From: Corynebacterium riegelii
Lineage (GTDB): Bacteria > Actinomycetota > Actinomycetes > Mycobacteriales > Mycobacteriaceae
Length of the DNA: 64,000 nt
Assembly (NCBI RefSeq): GCF_016728505.1
Contig: NZ_CP068159.1
Location: 2,170,001-2,234,000, forward strand
Direction of reading: 5' to 3'
How positions within the stretch are numbered: the first letter of the stretch is position 1; each line of letters starts with the position of its first letter. The translations under genes and the position numbers were made by a program. The notes beneath the pieces were generated by a model. The model was not told where the DNA came from. It saw only the letters and a list, made by a program, of their open reading frames with translations, and searched no databases. Of this stretch, positions 2,900 to 52,674 are shown one piece after another.

Positions 2900-3115
2900 T
2901 TATTTCCCGGGCCGGTCTACTCCCAAGCGCCGTTCCGCTGGCACGTCAAAGGCATTGCACAGCCCCTCCCACACCTCGCGCGGATCGACACCACTTTCGA
3001 TGAGCTCACTTGCCGTCATATCGCTAGAGGCAAGCACCTGGGAACGAATGATCCATTCCGCACGCTCCGGGCCAAACTCATCACGAACAAGCTGATGAAA
3101 TTCCGTCAATCGCAT
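2900..3115 (-). CDS. DUF3046 family protein
   Basis: A 71-residue protein beginning MRLTEFHQLVRDEFGPERAEW, with the family's central pattern DPREVWEGLCNAFDVPAERR. DUF3046 proteins are small, soluble, of unknown function, and commonly encoded next to recA in actinobacteria, as here. A -10-like hexamer, TAGGTT, ends 6 nt before the ATG, so the transcript is probably leaderless. It is divergent from bioY and shares a nearly symmetric promoter region with it, so BioQ might affect both genes. Confidence 0.93.
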   Translation of the reverse strand: MRLTEFHQLVRDEFGPERAEWIIRSQVLASSDMTASELIESGVDPREVWEGLCNAFDVPAERRLGVDRPGK

Positions 3116-3121
3116 ACGGCC

Positions 3122-3174
3122 AACCTACCTAAGCACCCCTCAATACCACGCATTGAACAGCGTTCAGGTAGGTT
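3122..3174. promoter_or_regulatory. Divergent bioY/DUF3046 promoter, near-palindromic
   Basis: The outer arms are a perfect 9-bp inverted repeat: AACCTACCT at 3122-3130 and AGGTAGGTT at 3166-3174. Each arm carries a TAGGTT hexamer that ends 6 nt before a start codon: 3169-3174 before bioY ATG 3181, and the minus-strand copy 3122-3127 before the DUF3046 ATG at 3115. Both transcripts would be leaderless. The BioQ-type operator lies between the arms. Confidence 0.6.
3154..3166 (+). promoter_or_regulatory. BioQ-type operator
   Basis: TGAAC-AGC-GTTCA is a perfect 5-3-5 palindrome matching the published corynebacterial BioQ motif (TGAAC-N3-GTTAC type; BioQ is a TetR-family biotin regulator). It ends 2 bp before the -10 hexamer of bioY, so a bound repressor would block RNA polymerase and tie expression of the biotin importer to biotin status. 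Confidence 0.8.
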
Positions 3175-3180
3175 TTTCAC

Positions 3181-3798
3181 ATGACCAACTCTGAATCACC
3201 CCAGGCGAATGCCGCCTCAACGTCCCGCAGCTCTACCGCAACTGCAACTGATATCGCCTACATCGCCGTCTTCGCCGCCATCATCATGGTGCTTGGCTTT
3301 GTTGCCATCCCCGCCGGAGTATTCGGTGTGCCGATTGTCCTGCAGAATGCCGCAGTGATCCTGGCCGCCCTAGTGCTGGGCAGCCGCCGCGGTTTCCTCA
3401 CCACGTTGCTCTTCTTGGCTGTCGGTCTTGCATTTCCCGTTCTTGCAGGTGGCCGCACCACGATTGCCGCGCTCGGCGGCCCCACCGCGGGTTACCTTGT
3501 TGGGTATCTCATTGCAGCGCTTGTCGCTGGCGCCATTGCATACCGCGCACCGTTTTCCGCAAACCGCACCGTCACCACCGGCATCTTCATCGTGGCTGGC
3601 TACCTCGGCCTATTCATGCAGTACCTCTTTGGCGTGTTCGGCATGATGCTTCGCCTGGACTTGACCTTCGGTGCCGCATGGGCAGCACAGGTGCCATTCC
3701 TTTTGCCGGATGCAATTAAGGTGGCCGTCATGATTGCTATCGCCCTTGCTGTCCACACCGCGTTTCCGGACCTTCGCGGCAAGCTCGGCAAACGCTAA
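3181..3798 (+). CDS. bioY: Biotin transporter S component BioY
   Basis: BioY is the substrate-binding membrane subunit of the energy-coupling factor biotin importer. After a 20-residue Ser/Thr-rich start, the 205-residue protein has about six hydrophobic helices, with the family segments FGVPIVLQNAAVILAALVLG near residue 43 and AGGRTTIAALGGPTAGYLVG near residue 89. Its stop overlaps the bioM start (TAATG), and bioM overlaps bioN, so the transporter is one coupled operon. A BioQ-type operator sits just upstream. No biotin synthesis genes are in the window, which fits a biotin-scavenging lifestyle. Confidence 0.95.
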   Translation: MTNSESPQANAASTSRSSTATATDIAYIAVFAAIIMVLGFVAIPAGVFGVPIVLQNAAVILAALVLGSRRGFLTTLLFLAVGLAFPVLAGGRTTIAALGGPTAGYLVGYLIAALVAGAIAYRAPFSANRTVTTGIFIVAGYLGLFMQYLFGVFGMMLRLDLTFGAAWAAQVPFLLPDAIKVAVMIAIALAVHTAFPDLRGKLGKR

Positions 3799-5115: not shown

Positions 5116-5937
5116 CTACTCGCCGCGCAGTTCGCGCATACGCTGCGCAACTGCGTCATCAGAAACCTCGGCGCCAGCGTTGTTGCCCTGCTCAATCGCC
5201 GGCTTCGCGCCAGAGGTCAGCTCACCAGCCATCTCGGCGCGGATCTGCTCCAGGCGGCCGTGGCCAGCCATCTGGATACCGGCCTGCTCAACCTCAGCCA
5301 TGCGGCCCTGAATCGAGTTCTGGGCCAGCTCAGCCTGGCCAAGCGCGTTGGCGTAGCGGCGCTCAATCTTGTCACGCACCTGATCCAGGTTGGGGCCCGA
5401 CGCAGTAATCGCGTTCATGGACTGCATGGTCTCGGAGACCTTCTCCTGCATCTTGGCCTGCTCAAGCTGGCTCAGCAGCTTGGTGCGCTCATTGACCTGC
5501 TGCTGCAGCTGTGCCGCGTTGCGCTCAACTGCCTGCTTCGCAGAAGCCGCCTGCTGCAGCGCCTGGTCGTGCAGCTGCTTGGTGTCCTCAACGCCCTGCT
5601 CCGCGGTGACCAGCTGTGCCGCAAACGCCTCAGCAGCGTTCTCGTACTCCTGTGCCTTCTGCGCGTTGCCCTCGCCGCGGGCCTTGTCGGCCAGCTGCAG
5701 TGCCTGGCGGGTATTCGCCTGCAGCTTCTCCACGTCCTCCAGGCGGCGGTTAAGCTGCATCTCCAGCTGACGCTGGTTGCCAATCACGGCAGCTGCCTGC
5801 TGGGACAGTGCCTGGTGCTGGCGCTGGGCCTCATTAATTGCCTGCTCAATCTGGACCTTCGGGTCAGCGTTTTCCTCGATCTTGCTGTCGAAAAGCGCCA
5901 TCAGGTAGTTCCAGAACTTCTTGAACGGGTTCGCCAT
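5116..5937 (-). CDS. pspA: PspA/IM30 family envelope-stress protein
   Basis: PspA/Vipp1 proteins assemble on the inner face of the membrane and stabilise it under stress. The 273-residue product is almost entirely coiled coil after the amphipathic start [20 protein letters not shown], with Gln/Ala-rich heptads and the family pattern [20 protein letters not shown] near residue 25. It lies downstream of clgR, an arrangement also seen in mycobacteria, where ClgR activates pspA. GAAAGG is a plausible ribosome site. No PspC gene is adjacent. Confidence 0.93.
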
Positions 5938-6044: not shown

Positions 6045-6401
6045 TTAAGCCTCTGCTGCCGCAGGAGTTGTCGTACGCAGTTCCTCCGCCAAAGACGGCA
6101 GGGAGAGGTTTGCCACAGCCTCAAGCAACACCTCAGACACCGTAGTATCCAGCGCCTGGCAAATGGAAGAAAGCACCTCAGAGGACACTTCCTTGCGGCC
6201 GCGCTCAAGCTCCGAGAGATATCCCGGGCTCACCAGCGCTTGGGTAGCTAGCTCACGAAGTGACACGCCCTTGTCCGCGCGAAATGCACGCAGCGACATC
6301 CCCAGTGCTTCACGCAGCAGGGGTTCCTTCACCGGCGCGGTTGGGATAAGGGGCGCGGTGGTTAACGGTTGGTCTAGAAGCAGAGTCGTTGTTGCCATCA
6401 T
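6045..6401 (-). CDS. clgR: Transcriptional activator ClgR (XRE-family HTH)
   Basis: ClgR activates Clp protease and other proteostasis genes in actinobacteria and is itself a Clp substrate. The 118-residue protein has one Cro/CI-type helix-turn-helix: [20 protein letters not shown] then [20 protein letters not shown]. The short tail ends TTPAAAEA, a hydrophobic/Ala end compatible with Clp recognition. The start could be ATG 6401 or the following ATG 6398. It begins 5 bp after the cinA stop and lies before pspA, suggesting one stress-linked unit. Confidence 0.9.
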
Positions 6402-6406
6402 GAGTT

Positions 6407-6958
6407 CTAACGGATCAGCCCTTCAGTTTGTTCCCCAAGTGCGTGCAACACCCCAATTAGCGCTGCGTCCACGGCTGAATTCCTAATGTCATTGCGGGTT
6501 CCTGCAATCACACGCTGCGGCTCAGCCGTATCTGGAACCAGCGCGAATCGGGTCTGGCTCGGCGGCAACAAATCCGCAGCCAAGCTGGATGCAGTCCAGT
6601 TCGGCCCTGCAAGGCCAATCCAGACCTCGCCCACCGGGTGGCCGTCTTGGAGGTCAGGGCCTGCCACGCCAGTCAGCGCAACCGCCCAGTCAGAACCACA
6701 TGCTTGCCTGCAACCACGAGCCATCTCTCGTGCCACAGCCGCAGAGACCACACCTTCGCGTTCTACAACCTCGGCTTCTACCCCAGCGAGTGCAATCTTT
6801 AAGTCCGTGGCGTAGGTGATCAGTCCGCCGCGCAGCACGTCCGATGCTCCCGGGATGGCTGCAACACGGGCGCTAGCCAAACCAGCAGTCAGTGACTCAC
6901 AAAAGGAGATGGTTTGGGAATGTTTCCGCAGTGCGTCTACAAGCAAAGGCTCAAGCAT
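6407..6958 (-). CDS. cinA: CinA-type nicotinamide-nucleotide amidohydrolase (PncC domain)
   Basis: PncC-type CinA proteins deamidate NMN to nicotinate mononucleotide in NAD salvage. The 183-residue protein is the stand-alone C-terminal domain, with [20 protein letters not shown] near residue 18 and [20 protein letters not shown] near residue 93. The N-terminal MoCF domain of long CinA proteins is absent. I chose ATG 6958 (MLEPLL), which overlaps the pgsA stop by 8 bases; an upstream start would lengthen it by six residues. In the ftsK-pgsA-cinA-clgR-pspA order it links pgsA to clgR. Confidence 0.9.
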
Positions 6959-43240: not shown

Positions 43241-43990
43241 ATGAGCCAATCTGCCAACCTTGCCCAGAGTCTTGCCCAAGCACGCGAGATCCTCAGCCAC
43301 GCCAAACACATCGAGGTGTTTACCGGCGCTGGCATGAGTGCGGATAGCGGCATTGCCACCTACCGCGACGCGCAGACCGGACTGTGGGAAAACGTGGACC
43401 CGCAGGCAATGGCCTCCATCGACGCTTGGCACCGAGACCCCGACACCATGTTCGCCTGGTACCTCTGGCGCGCACACTTGGCCCAGCAGGCGCAACCGAA
43501 CGCGGGCCACTTGGCCATCGCGAACTGCCCAAAAACTACGGTGACCACCCAAAACATTGACAACCTGCACGAGCGCGCCGGGAGCAACAACGTGGTGCAC
43601 CTGCACGGTTCGCTCTTTGATTTCCGCTGCACCGACTGTGACGAGCCCTATACCGCCGAAATTGCACTGCCCCACGAGCCGGTTCCAACGATCACCCCAC
43701 CGACATGCCCCACGTGCGGTGGTCTGATTCGCCCAGGTGTCGTCTGGTTCGGCGAGGCCTTGCCGGAAGCCGAGTGGCATGAGGCGGAACGACGCATGCG
43801 CACGGCCGATGCCCTGCTGATTGTTGGTACCTCGGGCGTGGTCTACCCCGCAGCTGGTTTGCCGCTGATGGCTCATGCACGCGAGATCCCGATTATTGAG
43901 GTCACCCCAATGCGCACGGACCTTTCCCACCTGGCCACGGTGGTTGTTGAAGACACCGCAGCTAACGCCCTGCCCAAGCTCTTGGGCTAG
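43241..43990 (+). CDS. Sirtuin NAD-dependent deacylase (CobB, class III pattern)
   Basis: Removes acyl groups from lysines using NAD. The 249-residue SIR2 protein has GAGMSADSGIATYR at 29-42, TTQNIDNLHERAG near 102, the catalytic His122 in HLHGS, zinc-binding pairs C130/C133 and CPTC, and VGTSGVVYPAAGLP near 195. Tyr74 and Arg77 (WYLWR) are the Y-x2-R signature of class III sirtuins, which prefer succinyl, malonyl or glutaryl groups. It ends the DUF1648-nuclease-sirtuin operon; its stop shares CTAG with yoeB. Confidence 0.93.
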   Translation: MSQSANLAQSLAQAREILSHAKHIEVFTGAGMSADSGIATYRDAQTGLWENVDPQAMASIDAWHRDPDTMFAWYLWRAHLAQQAQPNAGHLAIANCPKTTVTTQNIDNLHERAGSNNVVHLHGSLFDFRCTDCDEPYTAEIALPHEPVPTITPPTCPTCGGLIRPGVVWFGEALPEAEWHEAERRMRTADALLIVGTSGVVYPAAGLPLMAHAREIPIIEVTPMRTDLSHLATVVVEDTAANALPKLLG

Positions 43991-44241
43991 TAGTGGTAAC
44001 GCGCCTGCAAGACTACAAGATCCCCGTCAACAATCATGTAGACCAGTCGGTGTTCTTGCGTAATTCTTCGTGACCAAGCACCCTCAGCACCATATTTCAA
44101 AGGCTCAGGCTTGCCTATCCCCTCAAAAGGGTCACGCAGCGTATCACGCAGCAGCTGATTGACGCGTTTGAGCATCTTTTTGTCATTGGCCTGCCAATGC
44201 AAATAGTCTTCCCACGCGTGGCTAGTCCAAACCAGCCGCAT
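43987..44241 (-). CDS. yoeB: Toxin YoeB (Txe/YoeB family ribosome-dependent mRNase)
   Basis: YoeB cuts mRNA in the ribosomal A site. The product is 84 residues, the same length as the E. coli toxin, and its catalytic residues fall at the same positions: Glu46, Arg65, His83 and the terminal Tyr84 (QARYHY). The toxin is therefore likely intact. It starts one base inside the antitoxin stop (TAATG), so toxin translation depends on antitoxin translation. It converges on the sirtuin gene, with overlapping stops. Confidence 0.93.
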   Translation of the reverse strand: MRLVWTSHAWEDYLHWQANDKKMLKRVNQLLRDTLRDPFEGIGKPEPLKYGAEGAWSRRITQEHRLVYMIVDGDLVVLQARYHY

Positions 44242-44504
44242 TACGCATCTAGTTCAACATCTAAGTCAACGTCGTGCTCTGCTACGGCACCGTTGAGTGC
44301 GTCCTCATATGCCTGCGTCAATCGGCGAGCATTTTCTCGCGTTTTAAACAGGTACGCGGTTTCAAGCCATGCTTCGTAATCCTCGGCAGACATAAGTACT
44401 GCATTGCCATGACGGGAAACAATCTCCACTGCATCGCGATCGTTGTTCACTTGCTGAATAAGCGGGTACAAGGTACGCCGAGCTTCAGACGCACTGATAG
44501 ACAT
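44241..44504 (-). CDS. yefM: Antitoxin YefM (Phd/YefM family)
   Basis: An 87-residue antitoxin that neutralises YoeB and represses the operon. The N-terminal DNA-binding region is MSISASEARRTLYPLIQQVN, followed by VEIVSRHGNAVLMSAEDYEA near 27, the family signature. The C-terminal toxin-binding tail is acidic (VAEHDVDLDVELDA). Start ATG 44504 has GGAGGG upstream. The frame is open further upstream, but only across the methyltransferase gene's other strand phase. The pair is an accessory module within housekeeping genes. Confidence 0.93.
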   Translation of the reverse strand: MSISASEARRTLYPLIQQVNNDRDAVEIVSRHGNAVLMSAEDYEAWLETAYLFKTRENARRLTQAYEDALNGAVAEHDVDLDVELDA

Positions 44505-46252: not shown

Positions 46253-47446
46253 ATGAACCAACCGCAGCTTGCCCACACGCTCGCAGAAATGCTGCCCGAG
46301 ATGGCACAACCTCAGCCCGGCACTACCTTTGCCAACGCGCAGCTAGTGGTGCTCAATGAGGCGCTCGCGCGAGAGCTTGGGTTGAACCCCGAATGGCTGC
46401 GCAGTCATGACGGAGTGCAGTGGCTTGCCGGTTCCCAGGGTGGTCATGCCATGGCTTACTCCGGCCATCAGTTCGGCCAGTTTGTGCCCTTGCTTGGCGA
46501 CGGCCGCGCCACCCTCCTCGGCAACCTTCCCACCACCGGCGACCAGGGCGGCTACGAAATCCAGCTCAAGGGCTCGGGCCTGACTGGGTTTTCTCGCCCT
46601 GGCTCCGACGGCGCTGGTGCGATCGGGCCGATGCTGCGCGAGTACCTGGTTTCAGAGTTCATGCACGCCGTGGGTATTCCGACGACGCGTTCGCTGGCGG
46701 TGCTCAGCACCGGCCAGCATGTGATTCGTAGGCAGGGCGGGGTACCCGGCGGCATTGTGGTGCGTGTAGCCAAAAGTCACTTGCGTATCGGTTCGGTGCA
46801 ATACGCCGCAACGCAGTCCACGGAGTTGGTGGAAAAGGTCATCCGCGCAGCTGGCTTCTACTCCCCTGTCGCGCTTTTGGAACACACGCTCAATTCCCAG
46901 CTTGCGTTGGTAGCCAAATGGATGCGCATTGGGTTTGTCCACGGGGTGATGAACACGGATAACGCGGCACTATCCGGTGAGACCATCGACTACGGCCCAT
47001 GCGCCTTTACTGAGACGTATGACCCGGACGCGGTGTTTTCCTCCATCGACGCCCAGGGCCGCTACCGTTTTGGTCACCAGCCATCGATCGCGGTGTGGAA
47101 CGTGGCCCGCCTAGCGGAGGCACTGCTTGGGGTGATGGATCAAGACACGGCCCAGTCGATTCTTGGTCAGGCGCAGCAGCGTTGGGACGCCGCCTGGAAT
47201 GCCGAAGTGCCCAACCCCGAAGAGCTTGCTGCGGCAGAGGACCTCTTTGAGTTCAACGGCATCGTGTTTGGGCCACGCAACGGCATGCTGGAGCGCGCCA
47301 TCGTGGAGGCGGAACGAAACAGCAACCTCGAACCGTTTCTGGAACTGGCGCGCGCAACCCAGGACCCGTTCAACCCGGAGGCTGGCCCGGAATGGATGAA
47401 GGCGCCCGAAGGCGCCTTCCCGTTTCGAACGTTCTGCGGTACCTAG
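46253..47446 (+). CDS. selO: SelO/YdiU family protein adenylyltransferase, short form
   Basis: Pseudokinase-fold enzyme that AMPylates proteins in redox stress. The 397-residue protein shows AYSGHQFGQFVPLLGDGRA near 63, QLKGSGLTGFSRPGSDGAGA near 103, VHGVMNTDNAALSGETIDYG near 224, and the C-terminal FPFRTFCGT. E. coli YdiU has about 478 residues; here the stretch between SHLRIGSVQYAA and GFYSPVALLEHT is much shortened, and the C-terminal Cys is kept. Active-site Asp and Asn residues are present, so activity is plausible. Confidence 0.9.
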   Translation: MNQPQLAHTLAEMLPEMAQPQPGTTFANAQLVVLNEALARELGLNPEWLRSHDGVQWLAGSQGGHAMAYSGHQFGQFVPLLGDGRATLLGNLPTTGDQGGYEIQLKGSGLTGFSRPGSDGAGAIGPMLREYLVSEFMHAVGIPTTRSLAVLSTGQHVIRRQGGVPGGIVVRVAKSHLRIGSVQYAATQSTELVEKVIRAAGFYSPVALLEHTLNSQLALVAKWMRIGFVHGVMNTDNAALSGETIDYGPCAFTETYDPDAVFSSIDAQGRYRFGHQPSIAVWNVARLAEALLGVMDQDTAQSILGQAQQRWDAAWNAEVPNPEELAAAEDLFEFNGIVFGPRNGMLERAIVEAERNSNLEPFLELARATQDPFNPEAGPEWMKAPEGAFPFRTFCGT

Positions 47447-51466: not shown

Positions 51467-51768
51467 ACAACATGAGCAAAACTTTCTAAGTTTGAATCAC
51501 CCCCGAAATAGGGGCAGGTGATGTTGCTACTGAAGCATGAGTATCGCCAGCTAGAACACTGGCGTTACTAAGTCCAGCCCACAATTTTTAAGTCAGAGAA
51601 CTCTGGCAAAATTTTAGGCGTTAGGTTGCGCCGCGCTCCAAGTTACTTGCTAACATGGTCCGCGACGCTCGGCACAAGGGAGCCGCCACTTCCTACCGAG
51701 AGCCTCCAGGGTGAAGCTCCTGCTTTACTGTGGACGTCCTACAAGTACTACGAGTAAGGATTTGTTTC
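51467..51768. other. Intergenic region and long leader before the small exported proteins
   Basis: About 300 bp without a supported gene. The first part holds short dyads after mtr (for example CACCCCCGAAATAGGGGCAGGTG near 51498-51520) that may end the mtr transcript; then comes the promoter at 51626-51656 and a leader rich in purine/pyrimidine runs. No known riboswitch was recognised. Confidence 0.5.
51626..51656 (+). promoter_or_regulatory. Promoter of the small exported protein genes
   Basis: TTGCGC (51626-51631), a 19-bp spacer, and the extended -10 TGC-TAACAT (51648-51656) lie about 110 bp before the first gene. This predicts an unusually long leader (about 105 nt) for this compact chromosome. 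Confidence 0.5.
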
Positions 51769-52188
51769 ATGCGCAAGTTCCAGAAGGCCGCCCTCGCAGG
51801 CGCCACCGCCGTTGCTGTGGCATTCGGCTCCACCGCAGTCGCAACCGCAGCTGACGAGAACCCCGGCAACTCCAGCGAAAACCAGAGCAGCAGCTCCAAC
51901 TCCAACGGCAACGAGGAGTCCAAGGAGTGGAAGGCTCCGACCAAGCCGACCAACGGTGACAAGCCGGCGACCGGTTCCACCAAGGTTGGTGGCAAGCTGG
52001 GCGCCCACAAGGACGGCCAGGCAATCGGCACCGACTACGACGCATTCTTCGGTGGCGAGGGTTGGACCGAGCAGGCTCCGATCTACAAGCTGCTCTTCGT
52101 TGGTGGCATCGCTACCTTCGTTAGCGCGCTCGTCGGCCTCGTCTTCGGCCCGGCGTACAACTTCTTCGTCCACGGCCCGTCTTTCTAA
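51769..52188 (+). CDS. Small exported protein with C-terminal hydrophobic helix (paralog 1)
   Basis: A 139-residue protein. A Sec signal peptide (MRKFQKAALAGATAVAVAFG, cleavage after ATA-A near residue 29) is followed by a Ser/Asn/Glu-rich low-complexity segment, a Gly/Lys-rich middle (GSTKVGGKLGAHKDGQAIGT), then a hydrophobic helix, LLFVGGIATFVSALVGLVFG, near residues 107-126, and the end NFFVHGPSF. Architecture recalls small envelope or pore proteins of mycolate-containing bacteria, but I cannot assign a family. ATG 51769 has AAGGA upstream. The next gene is a diverged paralog. Confidence 0.85.
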   Translation: MRKFQKAALAGATAVAVAFGSTAVATAADENPGNSSENQSSSSNSNGNEESKEWKAPTKPTNGDKPATGSTKVGGKLGAHKDGQAIGTDYDAFFGGEGWTEQAPIYKLLFVGGIATFVSALVGLVFGPAYNFFVHGPSF

Positions 52189-52232
52189 GTCGTAGCCTCC
52201 AAACAACCTAGATATTCGAAAGAAGGATAAAC

Positions 52233-52619
52233 ATGCGTAACTTCCGCAACGCAGCCGTGGCATCCGCTACCGCAGCAGCTCTGGTTCTTGGTGGCGCAAC
52301 CGTCGCTACCGCTGATGAGCAGAAAGAAACCAGCTCCTCCACAACCACCGAGGACAAGAGCACCGAGAAGAAGGACCTGATCTTCGCTGGCAAGCAGAAG
52401 GTTGAAGGCAAGGATGACGGCAACTGGCCGAACTCCGAGCACAAGGACAAGAACTACTTCGCTACCGACCACTTCGGCGAGAAGACCGACGTTAACGGTG
52501 TTCCGGACTGGGCTCGCTGGTGGGTTGACTCCTCCATCGTTGGCGCAATCGGTGCTGTTATCGGCCTGATCATCGCTGGCGTTAACTACGCTTCCTACAA
52601 CGGCTGGATCAAGCTCTAA
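52233..52619 (+). CDS. Small exported protein with C-terminal hydrophobic helix (paralog 2)
   Basis: A 128-residue relative of the preceding gene. The signal peptides are alike (MRNFRNAAVASATAAALVLG, cleavage near ATA-DE), followed by a Ser/Thr/Glu/Lys-rich linker, an aromatic patch (GVPDWARWWVDSS near residue 90) and the hydrophobic helix SIVGAIGAVIGLIIAGVNYA, ending YNGWIKL. The two genes are 44 bp apart with a good site (GAAAGAAGGA), and a strong terminator follows, so they form a two-gene unit. Mature sequences have diverged more than the signal peptides. Confidence 0.85.
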   Translation: MRNFRNAAVASATAAALVLGGATVATADEQKETSSSTTTEDKSTEKKDLIFAGKQKVEGKDDGNWPNSEHKDKNYFATDHFGEKTDVNGVPDWARWWVDSSIVGAIGAVIGLIIAGVNYASYNGWIKL

Positions 52620-52643
52620 GCTTTCCCCGCTGTAAGCGATAAC

Positions 52644-52674
52644 AAAGCTCCCACTCGATTGGGTGGGAGCTTTT
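52644..52674. terminator. Bidirectional terminator between the exported-protein genes and map
   Basis: AAAGCTCCCAC (52644-52654) and GTGGGAGCTTT (52663-52673) make a perfect 11-bp stem with an 8-nt loop and T-runs on both strands. It serves the rightward gene pair and the leftward map gene. Confidence 0.92.

Follow-up and report, generated by a model that had tools for sequence, protein, structure and literature searches.

A tandem gene pair of undescribed type for small, highly expressed exported proteins in Corynebacterium

Two short genes, here termed A and B, are the only ORFs between mtr and map in a Corynebacterium genome, and both have the build of genes for small exported proteins. 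The questions raised by this locus are what such a pair contributes to the cell, how strongly it is expressed, and whether its products reside in the mycomembrane or in another layer of the envelope. The pair bears on how small helical proteins reach or build the mycomembrane and on what ties this membrane to the wall, and a conserved and abundant pair, open to deletion in a laboratory strain, makes such questions testable. In this study, the window (the whole stretch of 64,000 nucleotides that was analysed) belongs to a genome of 2.52 Mb in one contig, which was placed in Corynebacterium by its relatives. An earlier reading of the DNA letters alone (the sequence-only reading) provided the claims that were followed up.

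Build, kinship and distribution of the two proteins

Gene A (51769-52188, plus strand, 139 aa) and gene B (52233-52619, plus strand, 128 aa) were located from the ORF list and the sequence; both start with ATG, and they are separated by 44 nt on one strand. Each protein opens with M-R-x-F and continues into a near-identical alanine-rich, signal-peptide-like segment closing with A-x-A, and a putative signal peptide was assigned by eye to about residues 1-27 of A and of B. A low-complexity linker with abundant Ser, Asn, Asp, Glu and Lys follows; by a crude cut, its length across the family ranges from 45 to 117 aa in A and from 53 to 136 aa in B.

One hydrophobic helix near the C-terminus was predicted in each protein (A 104-135, B 92-123) using AlphaFold2 and family alignments (40 proteins for A, 39 for B), the members of which were partly chosen by their signal-peptide-like start. 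The ten-residue mean pLDDT was 81-93 within the helix of A, 84-96 within that of B and 39-69 elsewhere; the whole-model means were 64.9 for A and 63.6 for B (pTM 0.36 and 0.34, respectively), and AlphaFold2 gave no confident fold outside the helix in either protein, the mature forms of which would comprise about 100-110 aa. The helices have aromatic residues at both ends, and the mean hydropathy of the best 19-mer was 2.05 in A and 1.89 in B. F94-G95 is invariant in A, and the helix residues G123 and N131 occur in 38 and 39 of the 40 A proteins; in B, G111 and N118 are each present in 39/39 proteins, and W93 is also conserved. The C-terminal tail carries K or R in 18/40 A and 32/39 B proteins. 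In 22 of the 40 A proteins no K/R occurs past the conserved Asn, and there is thus no classical stop-transfer signal there. Conservation of one helix face was considered and dropped (moment p=0.02 for A and 0.01 for B over the whole helix; p=0.48 and 0.08 for the core). The claim that two tandem genes encode small exported proteins with a single C-terminal hydrophobic helix was confirmed, with the signal peptides recognised by eye and the helices predicted, and the near-identical signal-peptide designs and low-complexity charged linkers were found as the sequence-only reading had described them.

Judged by their sequences, A and B are real tandem paralogues. The A profile found B in its own genome at E=1.6e-26, and hhalign aligned the two profiles over their length with a probability of 99.9%; the core common to both alignments consists of FG, a P-W-A motif, the helix and the Asn at the helix end. 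A and B themselves had no match above the cut-off in Pfam or NCBIfam, where alignment members gave stray weak matches alone (A members in Pfam, B members in NCBIfam), and no fitting family was found for either profile among PDB sequences. Plasmid records held no A match and phage records no B match. These results support the view that A-B is a two-gene family of undescribed type that belongs to no named family, as had been supposed.

The distribution of the family is confined to one genus in the samples searched. A single-sequence search with A matched 65 of 121 genus genomes at E<=0.01 (own genome included). The A profile matched 133/201 Corynebacterium genomes at E<=1e-3 and 102/201 at E<=1e-10, and some of its weak matches, where shown, span the N-terminal part only; the B profile matched 137/201 genomes at 1e-3. 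Across 251 genomes of the wider family, nine matched at E<=1e-6, two of them partially and close to the cut-off; all nine are Corynebacterium, one of 31 genera, and no strong match was found at this threshold in the other 30. Most of those 30 genera are taken to be mycolate genera, and the Corynebacterium-only range therefore indicates that A-B is not a general mycomembrane component. The expectation that homologs would be limited to mycolate genera agrees with a range inside Corynebacterium, but this range is narrower than expected.

Other small exported proteins were noted in the same genome. The stretch 642000-650000 contains two such genes on its minus strand, at 2938-3342 and 6308-6769 of the stretch, encoding 134 and 153 aa with a linker and a C-terminal hydrophobic stretch ending in LKLPF. 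Between them lie ORFs of 543 and 271 aa, which we take to resemble istA/istB of the IS21 type. Further matches to these exported proteins occur at 650.9-651.7 kb, and at E<=1e-3 matches of this type were present in 22 of the 121 genomes of the genus; 15 of these 22 have more than one such place, and a few of the places are B itself. Kinship of the exported proteins at 645-652 kb with A/B is not claimed, the stronger match (p2) being confined to signal peptide and linker.

Expression signals and expression level

The sequence and a comparison of upstream regions identified a -35-like element, TTGCGC (51626-51631, plus strand), 19 nt upstream of the -10 hexamer TAACAT (51651-51656), which with the preceding TGC forms the extended -10 element TGC-TAACAT (51648-51656, plus strand). 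Many relatives carry TTGTGC, TTGCA or CGTGCA in place of the former. A 5' leader of about 105 nt opening with GAC(A/G)C spans 51664-51768 (plus strand) if transcription starts at the conserved GAC, and in the window 7 nt separate TAACAT from GACGC (51664). TAnnnT followed after 7-8 nt by GAC(A/G)C (GACACC or similar) recurs in 38/51 distinct upstream regions (39/51 counting one at 13 nt), as raw counts without a chance control on regions related to one another. The pattern is absent from 12/51 regions, including those of C. glutamicum and the genomes close to it on the mtr tree (L052-L054, L095). The extended -10 form claimed earlier is present in the window; in relatives TAnnnT recurs, but the TG extension is mostly not kept. 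A promoter scan with an E. coli-type consensus found no promoter.

Ribosome-binding sites of sequence AAGGA precede gene A (51756-51760, plus strand; similar in relatives) and gene B (52223-52227, plus strand). Behind B, between the convergent B and map, an intrinsic terminator with a 13-bp stem and a T-run was located at 52644-52673 (plus strand), as described earlier; two terminator-like sites were found against 1.6 expected by chance, and the stem of the other site has 5 bp.

The leader, the predicted length of which agrees with the earlier estimate, folds at -36.4 kcal/mol, better than most shuffled sequences (z=-2.1; 4/200 shuffles equally good). Two consensus folds contain 15 pairs each, with at least one two-sided change in 6 and 5 pairs, respectively; covariation is slight, and the compensatory changes are too scarce and too restricted by clade to support a firm conclusion. 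Leader-based control had also been suggested. The leader does recur and has structure, but it fits no Rfam family and may simply stabilise the mRNA, which we consider its probable role. That it is instead a ligand-sensing switch controlling A-B seems quite improbable to us. Its recurrent start and multi-helix fold would suit a switch, as would a 5' ACACCGG segment that in one clade can pair with the GTGT that otherwise opens the next hairpin; however, this alternative ACAC/GTGT helix is invariant across seven sequences and thus gives no evidence of switching, and the C. glutamicum upstream region departs from the pattern, yet its gene is reported as the top transcript. Rfam returned no match at the gathering score in the window and chance-level matches alone below the cut-off in this region, and assignment of the leader to a known riboswitch or RNA family was rejected.

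High expression of A-B is well supported by codon adaptation, by a C. glutamicum transcript and by a promoter in practical use. With rpsB and tsf as the reference (0.730 and 0.774 on their own scale), B (0.723) and A (0.639) ranked first and second among 54 window ORFs, a mechanical pick in which false ORFs are possible; the median was 0.31, and the lead of A over the third-ranked PspA-like gene is tiny (0.639 vs 0.638). This third gene (5116-5937, minus strand) encodes a PspA/IM30 protein (PF04012), and its codon adaptation suggests an abundant membrane-stress protein. One genome, G443, was taken as C. glutamicum via one published 20-mer primer, present in 1/242 genomes, and there A is the ORF next after mtr, followed by B. 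In C. glutamicum, mtr is NCgl1928 (PMC4935862). Because of the gene order behind mtr, NCgl1929 and cg2195 are both identified with the A gene. In the part of the RNA-seq study consulted, NCgl1929 has the highest transcript of the test group (TPM 27617; 3136 genes detected; PMC7268698), and the A gene therefore seems to match the most abundant mRNA reported in this species. P180, a 180-bp intergenic fragment of cg2195, serves as a strong promoter (PMC6303301), and overexpression from it is described as independent of the growth phase (PMC3972247), as far as the excerpts of these papers go. The high expression proposed by the sequence-only reading was thereby supported. If the C. glutamicum ortholog is indeed the top mRNA, an industrially important model spends its largest transcript share on an exported pair.

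Locus, inheritance and the mycolate envelope

In the window, A and B are flanked upstream by mtr, encoding mycothione reductase (TIGR03452; 50057-51466, plus strand), and downstream by the convergent map, encoding methionyl aminopeptidase (TIGR00500; 52689-53591, minus strand); both are conserved neighbours outside the A-B unit. A survey of 48 fetched loci with wider flanks, all containing A and with three genomes present twice, found B directly downstream of A on the same strand in 47, the exception being L080, where the B profile was blank. Both mtr upstream and map downstream lay within the fetched stretch in 44/48 loci (not in L043, L048, L050 and L055), and C. glutamicum has an extra ORF between B and map. 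The unit is duplicated as mtr-A-B-A'-B'-map in seven loci from five genomes, including C. aurimucosum and C. phoceense. In all seven, the third gene scores higher as A and the fourth higher as B by the profiles; in one of them (L037), the ORF found for the fourth gene is shortened.

Mapped onto a 70-row mtr tree, the presence of A-B requires 5 label changes, compared with a mean of 22.4 in shuffles; inheritance of the pair was therefore mostly vertical, together with several losses or gains. Genomes without the pair were sampled by hand-picking 30 without a strong A match (11 Pks13-less and 19 of 87 Pks13-bearing). An mtr match was present in 29 of them, with none at the cut-off in G013. Within 1.5 kb after mtr, a crude signal-peptide filter let some ORFs through, but by eye none was built like A or B. 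In six Pks13-bearing genomes of this sample, the mtr match is followed after 4-27 nt by the 3' end of map; the A-B unit is thus cleanly absent there. Overall, about half of the sampled Corynebacterium species inherit A and B as a pair.

Pks13 was used to relate the pair to mycolates. A Pks13 match (E<=1e-100) was missing in 13/201 genomes, 11 of which are near-complete. A strong A match occurred in 0/11 near-complete Pks13-less genomes versus 101/188 genomes with Pks13 (Fisher p=3e-4), and A is present in one incomplete genome without Pks13 (G077). On the mtr tree, the ten placed Pks13-less genomes represent three loss events, and each time the nearest Pks13-bearing relatives are also without A-B; the association between Pks13 and A is therefore not independent evidence, and mycolate dependence of A-B, promising on raw counts, was set aside. 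In addition, 87 of the 188 Pks13-bearing genomes are without a strong A match, so A-B is dispensable for having a mycomembrane.

A published inventory bears on the same point. In C. glutamicum, mtr is Cgl2003, from which we infer, with some uncertainty, that A and B are Cgl2004 and Cgl2005; the accessible text of PMC12337289 uses Cgl2005 for cspB, which clashes with the number of B. Under these inferred numbers, neither protein appears in the one curated C. glutamicum O-mycoloylome table compared, as seen in part (PMC11066868, Table 1). A Ser-rich abundant mycomembrane protein might have been expected in such a table, and its absence might count against a mycomembrane location, although a single table that does not list A and B is compatible with their O-mycoloylation.

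Candidate roles of the pair

The closest known systems are envelope proteins of C. glutamicum. PorA/PorH and PorB/PorC are, like A/B, small proteins encoded by adjacent gene pairs in a mycolate envelope. To our knowledge, PorA has no signal peptide; PorH, unlike A/B, is predicted to have none, and Sec signal peptides are predicted for PorB and PorC, in keeping with the signal-peptide-like starts of A and B. ProtX (Cg2875), a C. glutamicum mycomembrane protein without homology to proteins of known function, resembles A/B as a small envelope protein without an assigned function, the location of A/B being putative, and differs in having 38 residues and no classical signal sequence, against 139/128 aa with a signal-peptide-like start. 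The excerpt of PMC12632848 describes PorA and PorH as small helical proteins of one operon with a predicted pore of five copies each, and states that surface exposure of PorH needs PorA. The two proteins, encoded by adjacent genes, are considered to assemble into a hetero-oligomer (PMC12632848, PMC9671496; both seen in part). The porin-type arrangement of two adjacent small helical subunits was found in A/B (47/48 loci; helix predicted), and the PDB sequences that the A and B profiles matched included no porin, in a search of Pfam, NCBIfam and PDB libraries that may not include porins.

PS2 (CspB) offers a second precedent, in which a C-terminal helix anchors hexamers in the mycomembrane, according to the part of PMC12337289 consulted. 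Like A/B, PS2 has a signal peptide and a single C-terminal helix (in A/B recognised by eye and predicted, with anchoring putative) and is reported only in Corynebacterium. It was also the best PDB match of both profiles, weakly and in the N-terminal signal region only (E=0.15 and 0.28). In contrast to A/B, which have just a disordered linker, PS2 has a folded core and arm, with an assembly domain at residues 30-483, and AlphaFold2 gave no folded helical core and arm of the lattice-forming type for A or B. The cg2195 region is the orthologous locus by gene order, with A and B behind mtr; the excerpts consulted describe it as the origin of a promoter and as a putative membrane protein, and the openly licensed literature searched gave no function for cg2195.

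With the PorA/PorH and PS2 anchors as precedents, a mycomembrane location of A/B is plausible. Our preferred reading, to which we would give an even chance, is that A and B are the two components of a single, very abundant complex of the cell envelope, probably in the mycomembrane. The pair would have arisen by tandem duplication and then been kept. Sec would export both proteins, and the signal peptides would then be removed; the single C-terminal helix would anchor each protein, most likely in the mycomembrane, with the flexible Ser-rich charged linker pointing toward the arabinogalactan or the outside. The helices, with their near-invariant Gly and Asn and their aromatic ends, may pack A on B into hetero-oligomers, which could give the envelope a structural or channel-forming component comparable to PorA/PorH and the PS2 C-terminal helices, and the strong promoter and structured leader would hold the mRNA level high. 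This reading is favoured by the pairing of A with B, vertical inheritance, the helix Gly and Asn, abundance, the envelope precedents and the uncharged A tails; the K/R tails (32/39 B, 18/40 A) and the low pTM (0.34-0.36) speak against it. The earlier guess of an undescribed, highly expressed envelope protein pair is therefore plausible in direction. A bolder version, which is tentative and in our view more probably wrong than right, would make A-B the founder of a new two-component class of alpha-helical outer-membrane proteins in Corynebacterium, in which C-terminal helices form a hetero-oligomeric ring or array in the mycomembrane, disordered arms reach into the arabinogalactan, and the complex, in amounts like those of Lpp in E. 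coli, acts as a pore or tether.

The strongest competitor places both proteins in the plasma membrane, where the C-terminal helix would stop, with the linker in the periplasm, and A and B would serve an inner-membrane complex as small scaffolding or modulating subunits; we consider this rather unlikely. Helix hydrophobicity lies within the ordinary transmembrane range, and on this measure a plasma-membrane stop is therefore equally possible. The K/R tails and the absence of the family from the other 30 sampled genera also agree with such a location. However, 22/40 A tails have no positive charge, and the window locus has no gene for an inner-membrane partner, its neighbours mtr and map encoding housekeeping enzymes.

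A released or surface-associated role outside any membrane, such as a matrix or glycan-binding brush with the helix serving self-association only, appears unlikely. The variable linker lengths would suit it, as would the signal-peptide-like start of the aligned members, which were partly selected by that start, but a 19-residue segment with a hydropathy of about 2 and conserved Gly and Asn is unusual in a soluble protein. Class IIb bacteriocins are likewise tandem pairs with Gly-rich helices, and a two-peptide bacteriocin-like pore former released against competitors would share the tandem arrangement, helix Gly and high expression of A-B, but this is very improbable given a leader that is signal-peptide-like and not of the double-glycine type, no candidate immunity or export gene between mtr and map in the window, and stable inheritance at a single housekeeping locus.

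Two further loci of the window were noted. At 43987-44504 (minus strand), a Phd/YefM antitoxin (PF02604, E=8.5e-15) is followed by an 84-aa ORF, presumably resembling a YoeB/Txe toxin, and the two form a probable toxin-antitoxin pair. The other locus (46253-47446, plus strand) is a 397-aa ORF for a SelO adenylyltransferase; its match to the Pfam model covers only positions 22 to 331 of 466, and its C-terminus is possibly shortened or diverged.
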